A stretch of 51,013 bases of DNA, taken from NCBI GenBank assembly GCA_003139095.1, contig PLHW01000063.1, positions 121,990-173,002 of the forward strand, read 5' to 3'. Positions 13,753 to 35,978 of the stretch are shown one piece after another. The notes under the pieces were generated by a model. The model had not been told where the DNA came from. It saw only the letters and a list, made by a program, of their open reading frames with translations, and searched no databases. Position numbers and translations under genes: made by a program. The stretch's first letter is position 1. Every line of letters begins with the position of its first letter. The stretch comes from Acidobacteriaceae bacterium. Lineage in GTDB: Bacteria; Acidobacteriota; Terriglobia; Terriglobales; Acidobacteriaceae.

Positions 13753-13802
13753 GGGTGCCCCATCCTTAAACGTCGCGCATTTTGCGACGTTTAGGGTGGG
13801 GC
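13753..13802. repeat. GGTGCCCC-type palindromic element, copy 1
   Basis: Outer arms GGGTGCCCCATCCT and AGGGTGGGGC enclose an inner stem AAACGTCGC / GCGACGTTT with a short loop. The outer arms match the other copies while the inner stem sequence differs and still pairs. Confidence 0.85.
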
Positions 13803-13803
13803 T

Positions 13804-13860
13804 TTTGACTTTGACTTTGACTTTGCTTTTGACTTTTGATTTTGACTTTGCTTTTGAACT
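13804..13860. repeat. Degenerate TTTGACT tandem run
   Basis: Head-to-tail TTTGACT/TTTTGACT words. The same words follow palindromic elements at 13920 and 33881. Confidence 0.8.
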
Positions 13861-13878
13861 TCGACACCACCAAACCGA

Positions 13879-13920
13879 GGGTGCCCCGTCCTTGTCGCGT
13901 TTTCTGCGACAGGGCGGGGC
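13879..13920. repeat. GGTGCCCC-type palindromic element, copy 2
   Basis: Outer arms GGTGCCCCGTCC / GGGCGGGGC with inner stem TGTCGC / GCGACA. Bases 13880-13919 are identical to 33841-33880, which lies inside a protein kinase gene. The similarity continues into the following ATTTGACTT stretch. Confidence 0.92.
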
Positions 13921-14019: not shown

Positions 14020-14054
14020 GGGGCTGGCCCACCCTCTCACCCATCACAACTCCC
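14020..14054. repeat. 35-bp dispersed element (copy A)
   Basis: GGGGCTGGCCCACCCT followed by CCCATC and CAACTCCC. A very similar stretch occurs at 39971-40005, downstream of the AIPR gene. Confidence 0.7.
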
Positions 14055-14136
14055 GAGGGTGCCGTCTCAGCGTTCTAGGCGAACTCCGCGGTTCAAGATT
14101 CTTATCCTGGCTCCGCGCCTTAATACCTGCCAATCC

Positions 14137-15408
14137 TTATCGCGTAATCTTAAACAGCACACCTGCGCCGTTAGCGCCTCCCGCGGCGGTGCCGTACAGG
14201 CTCCCCTTGCTATCCACGGCCAATTCCGACGAGGGATGCTCCCCGTCGATGCCTCCCGTAAAGGTATAGACAACGATCTCTTTCCCTTTGGCTAGGTTCG
14301 GCAGTTCATACACGACGCCACATCCGTAGTAATTGCCGTCGTAACATGAATGGTCGCCGCCATAGTAAGTTGTGCTATAGAGATTGCCCGCAGCATCCTG
14401 CACGAACCCAGCCCGCGGCGCTTGCCCGTCCTTTCCCAGCCGGGTGAATGCGTGCGGCACTTTTTCCGTCCCCGCGGGCGTGATCTTGTAGGCTACCCCG
14501 CAGCCTTCGTACGGATAATTCTGCGTGCACCCTTTCAGGTTGCCGCCATAGTATGTGGTGCCGTAAACATTCCCCTTGGCGTCCAGCATCAGCAGCCCGT
14601 ACGGCGACTCGCCATACGTCGCGCCATTGTAGAAGGAGAACAGCGTCGTGAAGTCGCCAGACGGTGTCACCTTAAACACGATTCCTGGGAACGGCCCGAA
14701 GTCCCATGCCTGGTCGGTGGTGCCGTACAGATTGCCTTTTGCATCCCCAATCAGTCCCGCCGATGGGTTGCCATCATCCAGCCCCCCAGTGAATGCCCAG
14801 ACCACGCTCTCAATCCCCGTGGCCGTGACCTTGAACACCACACCGCACGGGTAGCCCTCAAAGCAAGTGTATGGACCGCCGTCTATGGTCGTGCCGTACA
14901 GATTGCCCTCGGCATCGCGCACCAATCCGCCATTCGGAAACCCTCCGTCGTTCCCATCGGTAAAACCGTAGAGCACTGTTTCCTTTCCCGACGAGCCTAG
15001 CTCAAACACTGTTCCGGCGCCGTAAGCGCCTCCTCCGCTCGTAACGCCATAGAAGTTGCCGTTGCTGTCTTCCACCAGAGGACCCGCCGGACTTGCCCCG
15101 TCCGAGGGGCCTCCCTTGAAGCTGTAGAGTACTTTTTCTGTCCCGGCCGTAGTTAGCTCGAACACCGTTCCCGCATTGTATGCACCTCCTGCGTAGGTGG
15201 TGCCGTAGAGGTTGCCGCTTTTATCTTGGATCAATTGGCCGCTTGGTCCGTAGCCATCGGTACATTGTGACTGGGAACAAAAGTTGTAGAGCACGCTATA
15301 CGTCTGCGCTTGCCCCGGCAGAGTTGCTCTGACCACGAACCCCAGAACCGCAGCCAGCATCATGACTCCGGGGCCGATTCGTTTCCATAAAAAGTGCGCG
15401 TCACACAT
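14137..15408 (-). CDS. Secreted GloVer-repeat protein
   Basis: 423 residues. A hydrophobic signal segment (VMMLAAVLGFVVRATLPGQAQ) precedes about seven repeats of roughly 45-55 residues. Each carries the GloVer signature (TIGR03803 type): GTVFELT, KVLYSF, DG..P..GL, D..GNLYGTT. The family is abundant in Acidobacteria and Verrucomicrobia; the fold is likely a beta-propeller and the role is unknown. ATG at 15406-15408 is well supported by AAGGAGGAGAT just upstream. A second GloVer gene lies at 25475-26860. The upstream leader contains a possible conserved stem-loop (15560-15585). Confidence 0.9.
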   Translation of the reverse strand: MCDAHFLWKRIGPGVMMLAAVLGFVVRATLPGQAQTYSVLYNFCSQSQCTDGYGPSGQLIQDKSGNLYGTTYAGGAYNAGTVFELTTAGTEKVLYSFKGGPSDGASPAGPLVEDSNGNFYGVTSGGGAYGAGTVFELGSSGKETVLYGFTDGNDGGFPNGGLVRDAEGNLYGTTIDGGPYTCFEGYPCGVVFKVTATGIESVVWAFTGGLDDGNPSAGLIGDAKGNLYGTTDQAWDFGPFPGIVFKVTPSGDFTTLFSFYNGATYGESPYGLLMLDAKGNVYGTTYYGGNLKGCTQNYPYEGCGVAYKITPAGTEKVPHAFTRLGKDGQAPRAGFVQDAAGNLYSTTYYGGDHSCYDGNYYGCGVVYELPNLAKGKEIVVYTFTGGIDGEHPSSELAVDSKGSLYGTAAGGANGAGVLFKITR

Positions 15409-23981: not shown

Positions 23982-25229
23982 ATGCCTGATCTGTCACCTT
24001 GCGCGGAGCCTCCCATGCCCCAACCCCGCCCCTCCCAACCCTTCCTCGAACCCCAGCAGTGGCACGCTGTCAGCGCCAGCTTTCTCGGCTGGACCCTCGA
24101 CGCCTTCGACTTCTTCGTCGCCGTCTTCCTCGTCAACACGCTCGCCGCGCAGTTTCACGTCACCGCGGCAAAAATCATCTTCACCACCGCCGCCACGCTC
24201 GCCATGCGTCCCCTCGGCGCCGTCATCTTCGGCCTGCTCGCCGACCGCTACGGACGCCGCGGCCCCCTCATGGCCAACGTCGTATTCTTCTCCGTCGTCG
24301 AACTCCTCTGCGGCTTCGCCCCCAACTACACCTTCTTCCTTCTCCTGCGCACCGTCTACGGCATCGGCATGGGCGGCGAGTGGGGCGTCGGCGCCTCCCT
24401 CGCCATGGAAAGCATTCCTCCCCATCGCCGCGGCCTCATCTCCGGCATCATCCAATCCGGATACTCCTGCGGCTATCTCCTCGCCGCCATCGTCGCCAAA
24501 TTCATTCTCCCGCTCTGGGGATGGCGCGCCATGTTCTGGGTCGGCGGCCTGCCCGGCCTGCTCGCTTTCTACATTCGCTGGAAGGTTAAAGAGTCGGAAG
24601 CATGGAAACAGCACCGTGTCCCCGAATTCAAATCCATCGCCCGCGCCGCCTCCTCCAACTGGAAACTCTTTCTCTACATGATCGGCCTCATGGCCCTCAT
24701 GAATTTCTTCTCCCACGGAACCCAGGATCTCTATCCCCACTTTCTCGCGTCCCGCGGCTTCACCACCTCCACCATCGCCAACGTCGCCATCTTCTATAAC
24801 ATCGGAGCCCTCGTCGGCGCGCTCACCTTCGGCCGCCTCTCTGAGCCGCTCGGCCGCCGTCGCGCCCTCGTTCTCGCCGCCGCGCTCTCGCTCTGCATCA
24901 TTCCGCTCTGGGCCTTCGGCCGCACTCTCATCGCGCTCGCCATCGGCGCCTTCATCATCCAGGTCGGAGTGCAAGGCGCATGGGGAATCATTCCCGCGCA
25001 TTTAAACGAGCTCTCTCCGCCCGCCGTCCGCGGCCTAATCCCGGGCCTCGCCTACCAGTTAGGAAATTTCGTAGCCTCGCCCGTCAACACCATTGAATAC
25101 GCCTTGCGCGATCGTTGGGGATACTCCTGGGCCATCGCCGCCTTCGAAATCGCCGTCATCCTTCTCTTAGCGATCGTAGTAACCGCAGGCCCAGAGCAAA
25201 AAGGCAGACACTTCCTCAAACCAACGTGA
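23982..25229 (+). CDS. MFS transporter, sialate/carboxylate:H+ symporter type
   Basis: Inner-membrane secondary transporter of 415 residues with about 12 predicted helices. The opening FLGWTLDAFDFFVAVFLV and the loop motif GLLADRYGRRGPLM are those of the metabolite:H+ / sialate:H+ symporter branch. GEWGVGASLAMESIPPHRRG is the matching helix-5 motif. It may carry a monocarboxylate or sialic acid; this is inference from family. The open frame extends far upstream into the receptor gene, but the ATG at 23982 (24 bp after the receptor stop) or the ATG at 24015 gives the proper N-terminus. Close spacing suggests co-transcription with the receptor. Confidence 0.88.
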   Translation: MPDLSPCAEPPMPQPRPSQPFLEPQQWHAVSASFLGWTLDAFDFFVAVFLVNTLAAQFHVTAAKIIFTTAATLAMRPLGAVIFGLLADRYGRRGPLMANVVFFSVVELLCGFAPNYTFFLLLRTVYGIGMGGEWGVGASLAMESIPPHRRGLISGIIQSGYSCGYLLAAIVAKFILPLWGWRAMFWVGGLPGLLAFYIRWKVKESEAWKQHRVPEFKSIARAASSNWKLFLYMIGLMALMNFFSHGTQDLYPHFLASRGFTTSTIANVAIFYNIGALVGALTFGRLSEPLGRRRALVLAAALSLCIIPLWAFGRTLIALAIGAFIIQVGVQGAWGIIPAHLNELSPPAVRGLIPGLAYQLGNFVASPVNTIEYALRDRWGYSWAIAAFEIAVILLLAIVVTAGPEQKGRHFLKPT

Positions 25230-25290
25230 TTGTGCAGCGCAGTGATTGTGCAGCGCAGTGATTGTGCAGCGCAGTGATTGTGCAGCGCAG
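25226..25290. repeat. 16-bp tandem repeat, four perfect copies
   Basis: GTGATTGTGCAGCGCA repeated four times without mismatch, overlapping the last bases of the MFS gene. The last copy runs into the GCGCAGACA hairpin at 25285-25306. Confidence 0.95.
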
Positions 25291-25474: not shown

Positions 25475-26860
25475 CTACGGCGTCACTTTGAACACCGTGC
25501 CGCAGCCGTAAGGAGCGCAGTAGGCGCCGCCCCGGTAGGTCGCGCCGTAGAGATTCCCCTTCTTGTCAAAGACCAGTCCACCATTGAGCTGGTAGCCGTC
25601 GCCGCTCGCGCCAAAGCTGTGGAGAATCGTCTCCGTCCCCGATGGCGTCAGCTTAAACACCGTGCCGCAGCCGTAGAGAGCGCATCCGTATCCTTCGCGG
25701 CTATAAGAGCCGCCATCTGCGGTCGTGCCGTAGAGGTTCCCTTTCTTATCCAGGAGCAGGCCGGCCACGGGAGCATATCCATCCCCGCTCACGCCAAAAC
25801 TGTAGAGAATCGTCTCCATCCCCGATGGAGTTAGCTTAAACACCGTGCCGCATGTGTATCCATAAGGGCAGCTATATACGCCGCCCTCTTCGGTCGTGCC
25901 GTAGAGATTCCGCTTCTTGTCAAAGACCAGGCCGGCGTAGGGATGGGACCCATCCGTCCCATTCCCAAAACTCCAGAGAATCGTCTCCTTCCCCGATGGC
26001 GTCAGCTTAAACACCGTGCCTCCGTTGTAAGCACCGCCGTTGACGGTCGTGCCGTAGAGATTCCCTTTCTTGTCAATGACTAGGCCGGCGGCGGGAACCC
26101 ACCCATCCGTCCCATTCGGGTCAAAGCTGTGGAGAATCGTCTCCGTCCCCGATGGCGTCACTTTGAACACCGTGCCATAGCTGTACGCGCCGCCCGCAGA
26201 GGTGGTGCCGTAGATATTCCCCTCTGCGTCCCGGACCAGGCCGGGGTTGGGCCAGAACCCATCCGTTTCACACCGATCGAAGCTGTGGAGAATTGTCTCC
26301 GTTCCCGAGGGCGTCAGCTCAAACACTGTGCCGCTGCCTTGAGGGCAGATGTATTCGCCGCCCAGCAAAGTTGTGCCGTAGAGAGTCCCTTCATTGTCCA
26401 AGAACACTCCGCCCCAGGAAGAGTGCCCGTCCGTCCCGTTATCATCGAAACTGTGGAGAATCGTCTCGGTTCCCGAGGGCGTCAGCTCAAACACCGTGCC
26501 GCATCCTCCATGATTGCAGCTGTAGGCGCCGCCCACCAAAGTTGTGCCATAGAGATTCCCCTCCCCGTCGAAAACCGGTGTGACCCAAGACGGTCCCGCC
26601 CCGTCCGTGCAGTTGGGCCGGGCGCAGAAACTGTAGAGTACGGTTTCCGTCTGGCCATGCGCCGGTTGAACGGCCCCCAGCAGCAGCGCGGAAAACACCA
26701 CCAGTGTCAGTACACCGCACACTCCACCCCAGCCGGCGAAACCCACATTGTCTAAGGACCCCGGTGTCGCCGACGCCAGTTTCGTCGAGCCCGGATTCCG
26801 CTCGACAGCAGAATTGCCCGAACCACGCTTCAGGCCGCGCACAGTAGCTGAGGGGCGCAT
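25475..26860 (-). CDS. Secreted GloVer-repeat protein (second copy)
   Basis: 461 residues with a late hydrophobic export segment (about 48-66, VLTLVVFSALLLGAVQPAHG), then eight or nine very regular GloVer repeats: GTVFKLTPSGTETILHSF, DG..P..GLV, DKKGNLYGTT. The repeats are nearly identical even at DNA level, so they probably expanded recently or are homogenised by recombination. The N-terminal 45 residues ahead of the hydrophobic segment are long for a signal peptide. ATG 26858-26860 has AGGAGGG upstream. Role unknown; probably a cell-surface propeller. Confidence 0.9.
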   Translation of the reverse strand: MRPSATVRGLKRGSGNSAVERNPGSTKLASATPGSLDNVGFAGWGGVCGVLTLVVFSALLLGAVQPAHGQTETVLYSFCARPNCTDGAGPSWVTPVFDGEGNLYGTTLVGGAYSCNHGGCGTVFELTPSGTETILHSFDDNGTDGHSSWGGVFLDNEGTLYGTTLLGGEYICPQGSGTVFELTPSGTETILHSFDRCETDGFWPNPGLVRDAEGNIYGTTSAGGAYSYGTVFKVTPSGTETILHSFDPNGTDGWVPAAGLVIDKKGNLYGTTVNGGAYNGGTVFKLTPSGKETILWSFGNGTDGSHPYAGLVFDKKRNLYGTTEEGGVYSCPYGYTCGTVFKLTPSGMETILYSFGVSGDGYAPVAGLLLDKKGNLYGTTADGGSYSREGYGCALYGCGTVFKLTPSGTETILHSFGASGDGYQLNGGLVFDKKGNLYGATYRGGAYCAPYGCGTVFKVTP

Positions 26861-31544: not shown

Positions 31545-32081
31545 TCACTGCGGCTTCTCCCCAGCTTTCTGCCCATCCGCCGCCTTCCCCTTCTCCTGCA
31601 CTCCATACGCCGAGATCTGTCCCGCCGGTTTCTTCAGTCTCACCGTAATTTCCGTCTCTGGCTGCTTGATCTCGTAGTCCTCTCCAAACGTCTGGAATCC
31701 CGGCGCCAGCACCTGCACCCGCAGCGGCCCATACGGAATCCCGTCGATCCACGTCTTCCCCTCTTCGTCCGTCTTCAATTCCATCCCGCCCATCGCCTGC
31801 TTGCCCTTCTTATTCACCGGATGCAGCACCACCGCCGCATTCTTCACCGGCTTGCCGTTCGCGTCGCGCACCACTACAAACCGCATATTCGACATCGGCC
31901 CTTCGTCTTCATCCTGCGCAAAACCGTGCCCCAGGCCCATTCCCAGCCCCAGCGCGATCACCGCCAATCCCACCGCAAACTTCCCAGCGAAATTCCCACC
32001 GAACTCCCTCGCGAATCCCACAGCAAACCTTCCCCCAAACGTTCTCATACCCACCATTTTATTCGATCCCAAACCCGCCAT
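31545..32081 (-). CDS. Secreted carboxypeptidase-regulatory-like domain protein
   Basis: About 178 residues. A hydrophobic export segment (AVGLAVIALGLGMGLGHGFAQ) is preceded by an odd Phe/Gly/Ala/Arg-rich stretch (FGGRFAVGFAREFGGNFAG). One beta-sandwich domain follows: RFVVVRDANGKPVKNAAVVLHP, TDEEGKTWIDGIPYG, LRVQVLAPGFQTFGEDY, ITVRLKK. This resembles CarboxypepD_reg/transthyretin-like domains used as adhesion or binding modules. Several starts are possible: ATG 32081, 32057 or 32048; a TTG at 32105 is disfavoured. The shortest would give the best signal peptide. Function unknown. Confidence 0.75.
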   Translation of the reverse strand: MAGLGSNKMVGMRTFGGRFAVGFAREFGGNFAGKFAVGLAVIALGLGMGLGHGFAQDEDEGPMSNMRFVVVRDANGKPVKNAAVVLHPVNKKGKQAMGGMELKTDEEGKTWIDGIPYGPLRVQVLAPGFQTFGEDYEIKQPETEITVRLKKPAGQISAYGVQEKGKAADGQKAGEKPQ

Positions 32082-32121
32082 CGAAGTTTGATCATTCAGC
32101 GCCAATCGCGATCCGTCGTCA

Positions 32122-32173: not shown

Positions 32174-34798
32174 CTACCTCAGCCCCCTCACCACATACCC
32201 CACCGACAAATCCTGATAATGCATATACGCATACGCGCTCCCATCGCTTGAGAATAGCGGCGCCTTTGCCCCCGTCTCGCCCGCCGGGAGTTCCGCCCCA
32301 AACGCCTTCCAGAATTCCATCTTTCCCGTTGTCACATCTACCTTATAAACCTTCGCCTCTTTCTCGTTCTTATGGCTCGCATCCACCAGCAACGACGCCC
32401 CATCCGGCGACCATCCTCTCACCACCCACTTCGCGTCCAGTCCCGGAACCAGCCGCAGCCCGCTCCCATCCAAAGGCCATACGCCCCATTTCCCGTCCTT
32501 GTCCTGCACTGCCACGCTCCGCCCGTCCGGCGAAACCTCCGTGCCCGCCACGCCCTCCGGCGTTACCTGTTTCGCTTCGCCGCTACTGGCGTCAATCAAG
32601 TAATCCCGAACTCCATGGCCCGGCTCGATCCCCATCGCGACCACATGCCTTCCATCCGGCAAGTACCGTGCACTCTCATAACTGATCTTGTCGGACGTCA
32701 ATGGCCGCGCCTCGCCCGCCCCCGTCGGCACCAGCATCAGCGCCCCCTCCTCCGCCGGTTTCGTGATCACCCACTTTCCATCCGGAGAAATCGCCTGCCC
32801 CACCCCGCTCCCTATCCGCACCGGCGGCGCGCCATTCATATCCCGCAAAAACACTGTGTAGTTCGGCCCCCCTCCGTCCCCTTCTTCTTCGAACAACACT
32901 TTTTTTCCGTCCCGGCTCACATCCCGCAGTTGCGCCCATCCCAGCCAGCCCAACTCCCGCTCTTCTTTTCCTCCCGCTGCCATTCCCCTGATGCCCAGCC
33001 GGATCTGATGCGTAATCGTCAGCACCTCTCCATTCCGTATATCCTGCAGCCACATCCCTCCTGGTACGTTCGCAATCGTCCTCTCCTTGCCCTCCAGCGT
33101 CACTCCATGCAGACTCTCCGCGCTGCCCGTGCGGCTGGCCGTAAACCACACCTCGTCTCCCTTTCCCGACCACACGATTCCCTCTTGCGCGTGCCATCCC
33201 GACGACAGCTTCCTCTCGTGTCCCTCCGCATCGATCACTGCCACCGACCCTTCGTCGTCGCCTCCAATATTTTCGTGGTCCGCAAATGCCACCCTCTTCC
33301 CGTCCGGCGAAATCTTCGGCGTGCTGATCCAGTTGATCCCGTCCAGCAAAACCTTCCCCACCGGATATTCCAGCCTCCAGTGCCGGTTCTCGGGCAGGTA
33401 TCTCACCACCGCCATGTGTTCTCCATCCGCCGCCCAGTCCGCGTCCTGCACATTGTCCAGTACCTCCCGCGGCGTTCCCCCGCTCAACGGAACCCGCGCC
33501 AGCGTTCCCGCCCGCGCATACCCTCCGAATCTCACCGTGTTTTGCAGAATCGCCAGCTCCCCGCTCTTCGAAATCGAGAGCAGCTCCGCATCCTTAATCC
33601 CCAATTCGCGCGCGCCCGTTTCATTCGACTGCTCAATGTAAAGCTGGTTCTCACTCCCGTCCCACGACGCGCCATACACCACGCTCCCGTCCGGCGCAAA
33701 TCGCGCGCTCCAAATCGGCCCCGTCTGGAATGTAATCTGCTGGTACTCCGCCAGCGACGTCTTCACGCTCCCGCGTCCCACCCACCAGCCCAACCCGAGC
33801 GTCGCCAGCGCCAGCGCCAGCCCAATCGCAAGCCCGAGAAGGTGCCCCGTCCTTGTCGCGTTTTCTGCGACAGGGCGGGGATTTTGACTTTCATCTCCAC
33901 CCGCCCCCACCACCGCCTGCGCGCTCGTCCGCGTCGCCACCGAACTATCCGACAGCGCCTCCAGATTGAACGCCACATCCCCCGCCGACTGAAATCTTTG
34001 CCCCGGATTCTTCTCCAGGCAATGCCGCACAATCCGTTCCAGCGGCAAAGGAATACTTCTCCCCGTCTCCGCAAACTCCGGCGGCTCTTCTTTCAAAATC
34101 GCGCTCATCGTCTCCGCCGCGCTCTCCCCGTGAAACGCGCGCTTCCCCGAAAGCATCTCGTACAAAATCGATCCAAACGCAAAAATGTCCGCCCGCTGAT
34201 CCGTCGGCTTCCCCCGCACCTGCTCCGGAGACATATATCCCGCCGTCCCCAAAACTTGCCCCGGCTCCGTATTCACCTGCGCCGTCAGCGTGTCCCCGCC
34301 CCCCACCGGCGACTCCGGCCGCGTCAGCTTCGCCAGCCCAAAATCCAGAATCTTCACTCGCCCGTCTTCGGTTATAAAAATATTCTCCGGCTTCAGATCG
34401 CGATGCACGATCCCCTTCTCGTGCGCCGCCGCCAATCCCCTCGCCGTTTGCAGCGCGCAGTCGATCGCCTTCCGCACCGGCATCGGCCCGTCCCGCACCA
34501 GTTCGCGCAGCGTCGTTCCCTCCAGCAATTCCGAAACAATATAAGGAGCCCCCTGCTCCTCCCCAATATCGAAAATCGAAAGAATATTCGGATGGTTCAG
34601 CGCCGCCGCCGCCCGCGCCTCCAGCGCGAACCGCTGCAACCGGTCCCCGTCCGCCGAGTACGACGTCGGCAGCACCTTGATCGCAACCGTCCGGTTCAGC
34701 CGCGCATCCCGCGCCCGGTACACCTCGCCCATGCCCCCAGCCCCCAGCAAAGACTCAATGTCATAAGGCCCAAGCTTAGTACCCGCAGCAAGTGTCAT
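32174..34798 (-). CDS. Membrane Ser/Thr protein kinase with PD40/WD40-like C-terminal propeller
   Basis: 874 residues from ATG 34796-34798. The open frame continues 94 codons upstream without family similarity, so that part is excluded. N-terminal PknB-type kinase: glycine loop LLGAGGMGEVYRARD, VAIKVLP, catalytic HRDLKPENI, DFGLAKL and MSPEQVRGK. After an unusual linker a single helix (LLGLAIGLALALATLGLGWW) puts a PD40/TolB-like beta-propeller outside (SPDGKRVAF, SPDGKWVI, SPDGRSVAV, SPDGASLLV). The linker peptide SQNPRPVAENATRTGH is the translation of a 40-bp palindromic repeat (top strand 33841-33880) also found between genes at 13880. Substrates are unknown. Confidence 0.93.
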   Translation of the reverse strand: MTLAAGTKLGPYDIESLLGAGGMGEVYRARDARLNRTVAIKVLPTSYSADGDRLQRFALEARAAAALNHPNILSIFDIGEEQGAPYIVSELLEGTTLRELVRDGPMPVRKAIDCALQTARGLAAAHEKGIVHRDLKPENIFITEDGRVKILDFGLAKLTRPESPVGGGDTLTAQVNTEPGQVLGTAGYMSPEQVRGKPTDQRADIFAFGSILYEMLSGKRAFHGESAAETMSAILKEEPPEFAETGRSIPLPLERIVRHCLEKNPGQRFQSAGDVAFNLEALSDSSVATRTSAQAVVGAGGDESQNPRPVAENATRTGHLLGLAIGLALALATLGLGWWVGRGSVKTSLAEYQQITFQTGPIWSARFAPDGSVVYGASWDGSENQLYIEQSNETGARELGIKDAELLSISKSGELAILQNTVRFGGYARAGTLARVPLSGGTPREVLDNVQDADWAADGEHMAVVRYLPENRHWRLEYPVGKVLLDGINWISTPKISPDGKRVAFADHENIGGDDEGSVAVIDAEGHERKLSSGWHAQEGIVWSGKGDEVWFTASRTGSAESLHGVTLEGKERTIANVPGGMWLQDIRNGEVLTITHQIRLGIRGMAAGGKEERELGWLGWAQLRDVSRDGKKVLFEEEGDGGGPNYTVFLRDMNGAPPVRIGSGVGQAISPDGKWVITKPAEEGALMLVPTGAGEARPLTSDKISYESARYLPDGRHVVAMGIEPGHGVRDYLIDASSGEAKQVTPEGVAGTEVSPDGRSVAVQDKDGKWGVWPLDGSGLRLVPGLDAKWVVRGWSPDGASLLVDASHKNEKEAKVYKVDVTTGKMEFWKAFGAELPAGETGAKAPLFSSDGSAYAYMHYQDLSVGYVVRGLR
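33841..33880. repeat. GGTGCCCC-type palindromic element inside the kinase gene
   Basis: Identical over 40 bp to the intergenic copy at 13880-13919, with a further similar TTTTGACTT tail. It lies in the linker between kinase domain and membrane helix and leaves the reading frame open. Confidence 0.93.
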
Positions 34799-34928
34799 AA
34801 CCAAGCGTCCTAATAAGGTCTGAATCGAATAAGCTCTGAACCAAATAAAGTCCGAACCGACTGGATTCAGTCTGTGGAGTGATCTATGAATACATCCGAG
34901 GCACAGGATTATATATCGGAACCCTAAA

Positions 34929-34977
34929 CCCTGAGACCTGAGAGCTTGGAACTGACAACTGACAACTGAGAACTGGA
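34929..34977. repeat. Degenerate heptamer run (AACTGAC/AACTGAG)
   Basis: ACCTGAG, AACTGAC, AACTGAC, AACTGAG words in the leader of the secreted protein at 35022. Same word, inverted, as at 7092-7154 and 44049-44079. Confidence 0.85.
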
Positions 34978-35021
34978 GTACAATTCTTCCGCCTTCCCAA
35001 GTAACAAAGGAGAGAACACCC

Positions 35022-35900
35022 ATGAAAAAACTCACCGTGCTTCTGCTGTTCTCGTCTCTGGTCCTCGGAGCCGCCGCCACGCTCGCCGCTCAGGAACACG
35101 CCGCCAACCAACCCCCCAAAATCCTCAACATCGTTCGCGAATACACCAAGCCCGGCAAATCCGGCTCGGCTCACGAAAAAACCGAAGCCGCCTTCGTGCA
35201 GGCCATGCGCGCCGCCAAGTCCCCCACTCACTACCTCGCCGCCGACTCCATGTCCGGCCAAACCCGCTCCCTCTTCTTCACCGGTTTCGATTCCTTCGAG
35301 GCCATGGAGAAAGACATGCGCGCCGTCGAGAAAAACCCCACCTTCGCCGCCGCCCTCGATCGCGCCGGCGCCGCCGATGGTGAGCTCCTCAGCGAAACCG
35401 ATGCCGGCGACTTCGTCTATCGTGAGGAATATAGCCTCCGTCCGGTCACCGACATTCCCCACATGCGCTACTTCGAAATCTCCCTCTTCCGCATCAAGCC
35501 CGGCCACGAAAAAGACTGGGACGACCTGGTCAAGATGTACATGTCCACCGGCGAAAAAATCCCCGACGCGCACTGGGTCACCTACGAAGCCGTCTACGGC
35601 CAGACCAATGGCACTTTCATCGTATTTACTCCCATGAAGTCCGCCTCCGAAATCGACCACTCCCTCGGTCAGCAGAAACAGTGGATGGCCGCCTTTGGCG
35701 AGGAGGGCATGAAAAAACTCGGCGAACTTTCCGCCAAGTCCATCGAATCCACCCAGACCAATCTGTTCGCCTTCAACCCGCGCATGAGCTACGTCTCCGA
35801 AGACTGGGTCAAAGCCGACCCCGACTTCTGGGCCCCCAAAACAAAAGCAGCCCCCAAGAAAGAAGCCAAGAAGTCCGAAGAATCCGAACCTAAGAAGTAG
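35022..35900 (+). CDS. Secreted protein of unknown function
   Basis: 292 residues with a good signal peptide (LTVLLLFSSLVLGAAATLAAQ). The mature part has two similar halves, each with an opening beta strand followed by a Pro-Gly-x-x turn (NIVREYTKPGKSGSAHE; FEISLFRIKPGHEKDWD). This suggests a tandem ferredoxin-like (dimeric alpha-beta barrel, ABM/EthD-like) arrangement. No catalytic residues are evident. The tail is Lys-rich (KKEAKKSEESEPKK). AAGGAGAG precedes the ATG by 9 bp. Stands alone. Fold assignment is inference only. Confidence 0.78.
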   Translation: MKKLTVLLLFSSLVLGAAATLAAQEHAANQPPKILNIVREYTKPGKSGSAHEKTEAAFVQAMRAAKSPTHYLAADSMSGQTRSLFFTGFDSFEAMEKDMRAVEKNPTFAAALDRAGAADGELLSETDAGDFVYREEYSLRPVTDIPHMRYFEISLFRIKPGHEKDWDDLVKMYMSTGEKIPDAHWVTYEAVYGQTNGTFIVFTPMKSASEIDHSLGQQKQWMAAFGEEGMKKLGELSAKSIESTQTNLFAFNPRMSYVSEDWVKADPDFWAPKTKAAPKKEAKKSEESEPKK

Positions 35901-35940: not shown

Positions 35941-35978
35941 GGTGCCCCATTCAAGCCCTCCTTTGGCTTGAGTGGGGC
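35941..35978. repeat. GGTGCCCC-type palindromic element, copy 4
   Basis: GGTGCCCCATTCAAGCC-loop-GGCTTGAGTGGGGCA. The inner stem differs from the other copies but pairs perfectly, and a GCCCCACC arm follows. Confidence 0.8.

Follow-up and report, generated by a model that had tools for sequence, protein, structure and literature searches.

The palindromic repeat at positions 33841-33880 of a 51,013-nt stretch of DNA from an Acidobacteriaceae bacterium (assembly GCA_003139095.1, contig PLHW01000063.1, positions 121,990 to 173,002; the window hereafter) is very probably a non-autonomous element of the repetitive extragenic palindromic (REP) kind, about 51 nt long, that a cognate REP-associated tyrosine transposase (RAYT) moves or copies and of which one copy entered the linker of a protein kinase gene in frame. 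A preliminary description of this DNA had reported 40 bases identical between the kinase gene and an intergenic site, with similar flanks, and had suggested a small mobile palindrome that tolerates translation. Both likenesses hold: 33841-33880 matches 13880-13919 over 40/40 nt, the similarity of the repeat family reaches 53 nt at 94%, and the two copies share the flanking tail TTTGACTT. A small mobile palindrome able to sit in frame is supported in turn by a dispersed family, a covarying hairpin, a linked transposase and an in-frame insert in another genome (G029) whose orthologues are empty. The two copies and the kinase gene are:

33840..33890, + strand: putative mobile unit of ~51 nt, made of A (usually G), the GGTG-hairpin 33841-33880 and the tail ATTTTGACTT at 33881-33890
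33841..33880, + strand: REP-like hairpin, with unpaired GGTG, stem CCCCGTCC..GGGCGGGG plus GTCGC/GCGAC, and loop
13880..13929, + strand: second copy, identical hairpin 13880-13919 and tail, in a stretch where a clear coding frame is absent
32174..35080, - strand: kinase open reading frame (ORF), 968 aa as listed, likely start ATG at 34798, with kinase domain, linker, hydrophobic helix and C-terminal part
33989..34765, - strand: protein kinase domain, residues 106-364 (Pfam PF00069, Pkinase, E 1.2e-51; coordinates calculated)

A 20-base probe allowing up to 3 mismatches has two matches in the window and none in 100 shuffles of it. Folded with DNA parameters, the + strand with its tail reaches -14.9 kcal/mol (z -5.45), where shuffles average -5.9 and 0/200 of them go as low; an Rfam scan of the window gave no match above the gathering score. 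The repeat recurs in the window genome (5.53 Mb in 75 contigs, 98.13% complete), with four exact copies of the 40-mer and six within 3 mismatches, and the wide pattern GGTGCCCCN{20,50}GGGNGGGG finds 16 matches there against none for its reversed-pattern control. A narrower pattern is found in 17 of 61 genomes (the window genome and 60 relatives), spanning five genera. Among the 24 genomes of the genus, the identical 40-mer is present in five, the window genome included, and the GTCCTTGT form in ten. Variants differ in the arms of the stem yet keep the pairing. In ten distinct 46-nt forms, 97.1% of cells are paired, 29 cells are double-changed where shuffles average 11.7, and covariation scores 0.441 against 0.192 for shuffled and at most 0.101 for slid controls; this covariation belongs to the 46-nt relatives rather than to the 40-nt form of the window, and its cells are not independent, since the ten forms stem from about three lineages. 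Our set of 67 copies comprises the loci collected at that point rather than every copy in the relatives, and it excludes two loci of the window genome with a nested insert (L013 and L015). The base preceding GGTG is G in 63/67 copies, where the kinase copy has A, and the tail consensus is NTTTTGAYTT. We placed the unit limits of the kinase copy from the 51-nt insert of G029 and from column counts over the 67 copies. The two excluded loci (L013:1501-1565 and L015:1501-1565) carry a second short repeat, AGCCTGCCCTGAGCGGAGCCGAAGG, nested in the 3' arm of the element.

The in-frame translation and the linker location given in the preliminary description are both confirmed. On the minus strand of the 968-aa ORF the element reads as NPRPVAENATRTGH, after the Pkinase residues and immediately ahead of a hydrophobic stretch, LLGLAIGLALALATLGLGWW (by eye). 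The unit is 17 codons long and stop-free in this frame, so that the kinase remains open with an extra peptide. The start at ATG 34798 is likely from orthologue coverage and the position of M95, and the C-terminal part has a weak, sub-threshold WD40 match. The window protein was aligned to 25 kinase relatives, of which 19 are 61-73% identical to it and six 40-49%, and the peptide is in none of them, even with 5 substitutions allowed. The closest kinase matches are acidobacterial metagenome-assembled genomes; a scan of the named genomes gives 32 kinase loci, at least one of them on a 159,152-base contig of the same size as one already used, and a homologue of the neighbouring ORF 31545-32105 is present at 5/25 relative loci. 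A peptide-like reading at one of the 32 loci, L146, stems from an element that lies about 217 bases past the kinase match, on the opposite strand. A structure prediction for the kinase fragment (12 rows) was too poor for use, with a mean predicted local distance difference test score of 48.8, linker blocks low, helix 319-342 at about 70-74 and much of the kinase domain low.

A sharp insertion is in a different protein. With a coding test that demands an open frame for 200 bases on each side and 300-base flanks, and that can thus miss copies near gene ends, 4/67 copies are flagged within one open frame scoring best as coding on both sides: the kinase copy (L003), L105, L106 and L130. L106 has a poor downstream coding score and L105 lies at the edge of an RHS repeat frame, and we accept two in-frame insertions, the kinase and the G029 protein (L130); in-frame copies are rare. 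Relatives of the G029 protein occur in 34/61 genomes, G029 included, and we aligned the 19 whose loci were returned out of the 33 others, giving 20 rows in all. The G029 protein has 17 extra residues where 18 of the 19 orthologues have none and one has two, so all 19 are without the insert. The inserted DNA comprises hairpin, tail and one base, 51 nt in all. The element is antisense to the gene in both accepted proteins, with two cases only to go by. The inserted peptides differ (SQNPRPVAENATRTGH, KSNSPPSRKEREKDGAP), as the G029 reading frame is not that of the kinase, and what the two share is therefore DNA and not peptide. Pfam searches of the four element-spanning ORFs give the RHS repeat above cut-off in the L105 ORF only, COX4 below cut-off in the G029 protein, and no match in the other two. 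We also asked whether its open frames show the element to be adapted to translation, and rejected this: it is open in 5/6 frames, but 40% of base shuffles have 5 or 6. In another genome (G003), contigs L104 and L106 have a near-identical element with its flanks beside similar ORFs with a possible start codon just past the element, and L099:3065-3529 is one open frame with two inverted elements, whose C-terminal end looks DNA methyltransferase-like by eye and has no Pfam match.

The likely agent appears beside the element in relatives. Of the 69 copies in the 17 element-bearing genomes, 11 are no more than 500 bp from a RAYT gene, where 0.097 would be expected; they involve eight of the 80 RAYT genes considered (those among the matches listed, plus one from a further search). 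All eight exceed the cut-off of the family REP-associated tyrosine transposase, and they make up one side of a branch (95/88) in a 42-row RAYT tree, in which shuffled labels average 7.5 changes; the eight were selected for nearness to the element, and 30 of the other 34 rows are the best match per genome, picked regardless of it. Inward-pointing hairpins stand on both sides of six of the eight (L091, L092, L093, L094, L095 and L098), some of them close variants (GCTCTTGT, CACCCTTGT, GTCCTTCTTTCGCG). Of the remaining two, L097 has a clear copy downstream only and L096 a mixed arrangement. Most flanking copies sit 120-158 bases off the matched core, and the rules used to score them miss some copies visible in a separate inspection of the loci. 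Copies beside RAYT genes are found in two of the five genera. In the broad sense the element fits a RAYT-associated REP: it is a short dispersed hairpin, and a cognate RAYT with inverted flanking hairpins is present in relatives and not in the window genome. The window genome has RAYT genes at three places (contigs C56, C9 and C47), and close to each are hairpins in which GGTG or GCTG precedes a CCCC stem. An internal stop interrupts the gene on C9, the one on C47 (L019) has sister-type hairpins in and around the gene, and none of them belongs to the clade of the eight.

In the mechanism that we propose, a RAYT of this clade, an HuH/Y1 transposase, would recognise the palindrome as a single-stranded hairpin, bind it and cleave beside it, a candidate pairing drawn from sequence and gene arrangement. 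The unit of about 51 nt would be moved or copied, presumably with no target duplication. An event like that in G029 would have placed one copy, antisense, in the part of the kinase gene that encodes the variable linker joining the kinase domain to the membrane helix; an insertion of 51 nt preserves the frame, a variable linker could tolerate it, and the extra peptide is probably neutral. TnpA-REP enzymes are described in PMC8266576 as binding a single-stranded hairpin and cutting alongside it at a dinucleotide set by a tetranucleotide tag. The rule tested there on the enzyme from Marinomonas would, for a GGTG tag, place the cut at CA or CC, and the bases following the G029 unit are CA.

The tag is where the element departs from known REPs. 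The canonical GT[AG]G is absent from the 5' foot of the stem: GGTG is the unpaired tag directly before it, and GTGC falls in register with GTGG of the sister hairpins. (All 67 rows start with GGTG because the search pattern required it.) On a sister RAYT branch (L068, L071, L073), GTGG precedes CCCGTCC, and the element looks like a REP of the GTGG type in which C has replaced G and the stem has gained one pair. Otherwise it shares with REPs and their RAYT or TnpA-REP genes (the REPtron), as PMC3733652 and PMC6006769 describe them, a dispersed short palindrome, a RAYT gene flanked by inverted copies, a palindrome family particular to that RAYT, and in-frame copies in genes; REPs in frame within genes (PMC3733652), and also within RAYT genes (PMC6006769), were already known. 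In TnpA-REP subclass 2.4, REPs are found inside the transposase gene itself (PMC6006769), a likeness to the C47 RAYT, which holds hairpins in its gene; the HuH motif differs, EHVH here against NH[IFV]H in the table of that paper. The acidobacterial tyrosine transposases with terminal inverted repeat families called TIRYT (PMC3733652) share the phylum; they are Y1 enzymes whose genes have inverted repeats on both sides, and in Koribacter one of these repeats forms a dispersed family. A motif quoted for the TIRYT repeats is GGGGWSAS, and we compare them with the element by description rather than by sequence. The preliminary description had likened the element to Rickettsia palindromic elements (RPEs). 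The likeness stands for behaviour, in-frame insertion kept as an extra peptide, as in the G029 protein and, with no exact empty site, the kinase. It fails for kind: the element is REP/RAYT-like, in-frame copies are rare, and host and sequence differ. The element unit has no CGTC end, whereas R. conorii RPEs are described as CGTC-ended, and CGTC repeats as having no linked transposase gene (PMC3733652). Most likely it is a REP/RAYT variant that rarely lands in genes and then behaves like a Rickettsia element, ordinary in kind and a good test case. It is also conceivable, if rather doubtful, that it marks an acidobacterial REP/RAYT lineage with a changed guide tag (GGTG or GTGC for GTGG), and hence a changed choice of cleavage site, whose frame-preserving 51- and 57-nt units spread small peptides into protein loops and linkers across the family.

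Our literature searches found neither this repeat family, its tag or its RAYT clade, nor an insertion with 19 empty orthologues, and a search with four 11- or 12-base hairpin pieces gave no paper that, judged by the listing, is about such repeats. Of the papers listed, and judged by title and the start of the abstract, those on REPs that name Acidobacteria are PMC3733652 and PMC6006769. For the translated palindrome there is now a likely agent in one specific RAYT clade, together with an in-frame insertion that empty orthologues make sharp, and its insertion unit, target and guide rule become testable in a phylum for which these searches turned up two REP papers.

Several observations weigh against the mobile REP-like reading. 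The search of the window genome found no RAYT of the cognate clade (the nearest full-length match is 60% identical, and two short C47 pieces are 66% identical to a clade member), so that mobility in this genome is putative. Nor is nearness to the element confined to that clade: a limit of 1000 bp takes in 13 copies and 10 RAYTs, and the added L095b and L099 belong to other branches, L099 having a variant copy about 410 bp away as well. Shared flanks exceed 51 nt in many copies, and the moved unit may therefore vary. Two covariation measures do not rise above shuffles: 7/17 pairs are double-changed, a count as high in 167/500 shuffles, and for further pair types this holds of 488/500. In the kinase, absence of the peptide from all 25 aligned relatives leaves the preliminary description's insertion unrefuted; a clean empty site cannot be drawn because the linker is hypervariable and the nearest relative just 73% identical. 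The linker has 34-70 residues in relatives (median 42) and 52 in the window, and 6/25 equal or exceed it. Without the 17 residues it would have 35, fewer than in any of the five orthologues with the neighbouring gene beside them (46-70), and basic residues that precede the helix in many relatives are absent from the window protein (by eye), so that native residues may also have been lost.

We weighed three other explanations. The palindrome could be an old coding segment of the kinase, later copied elsewhere, as its open, clearly coding frame would allow; for the relatives compared we regard this as refuted and give it next to no credence, since 25/25 are without the peptide and the family spans five genera, beside RAYT genes in two. 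It could instead be a transcription terminator or an mRNA-stabilising hairpin spread by ordinary duplication, with mobility uninvolved. A GC-rich hairpin followed by ATTTT on the + strand would suit that role, as would the 63/67 copies not flagged inside one coding frame, but the pairs around RAYT genes and the G029 insert suggest mobility, and the antisense orientation in the kinase leaves no T-run after the hairpin in the kinase mRNA. We think this very unlikely as the whole explanation, though at its landing sites the element may happen to terminate transcription.

A slightly less likely explanation again is an RPE-like element under selection to insert into coding sequence, in which either the peptide is useful or the unit length is held at a multiple of three. 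It draws on the stem classes of 40 and 46 nt, which account for 53/67 copies and whose units, at 51 and 57 nt, are divisible by three, and on the two accepted inserts. Yet just four copies are flagged and two accepted, in different frames and with different peptides; stop-free frames are no commoner than in shuffles; and the lengths cluster within genomes, G028 supplying all six 44-nt rows. The REP-like element mobilised by a RAYT keeps our preference.

Three further features of the window are related to the element; the first and last were not in the preliminary description:

13754..13801, + strand: variant copy with a longer stem, AAACGTCGC/GCGACGTTT, then TTTGAC-like repeats
14020..14063, + strand: possible remnant of a longer flank common to many copies (GGGGCTGGCCCACCC...ACTCCCGAGGGTGCC), truncated before the stem (by eye)
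35941..35977, + strand: sister-family hairpin GGTGCCCCATTCAAGCC...GGCTTGAGTGGGG, of the type that occurs both within and beside the C47 RAYT gene

The tail TTTTGACTT of the variant copy continues at 13798-13860 as an irregular TTTGAC/TTTTGC array, and similar runs follow the copies at L010 and L016. Apart from this family, the ORFs 14137-15408 and 25475-26860, about 11 kb apart, have in common a repeated unit like GTGCCGTAGAGATTCCC with a spacing of about 150-185 nt, and at 25226-25289 a 16-base unit, GTGATTGTGCAGCGCA, stands in four perfect tandem copies.
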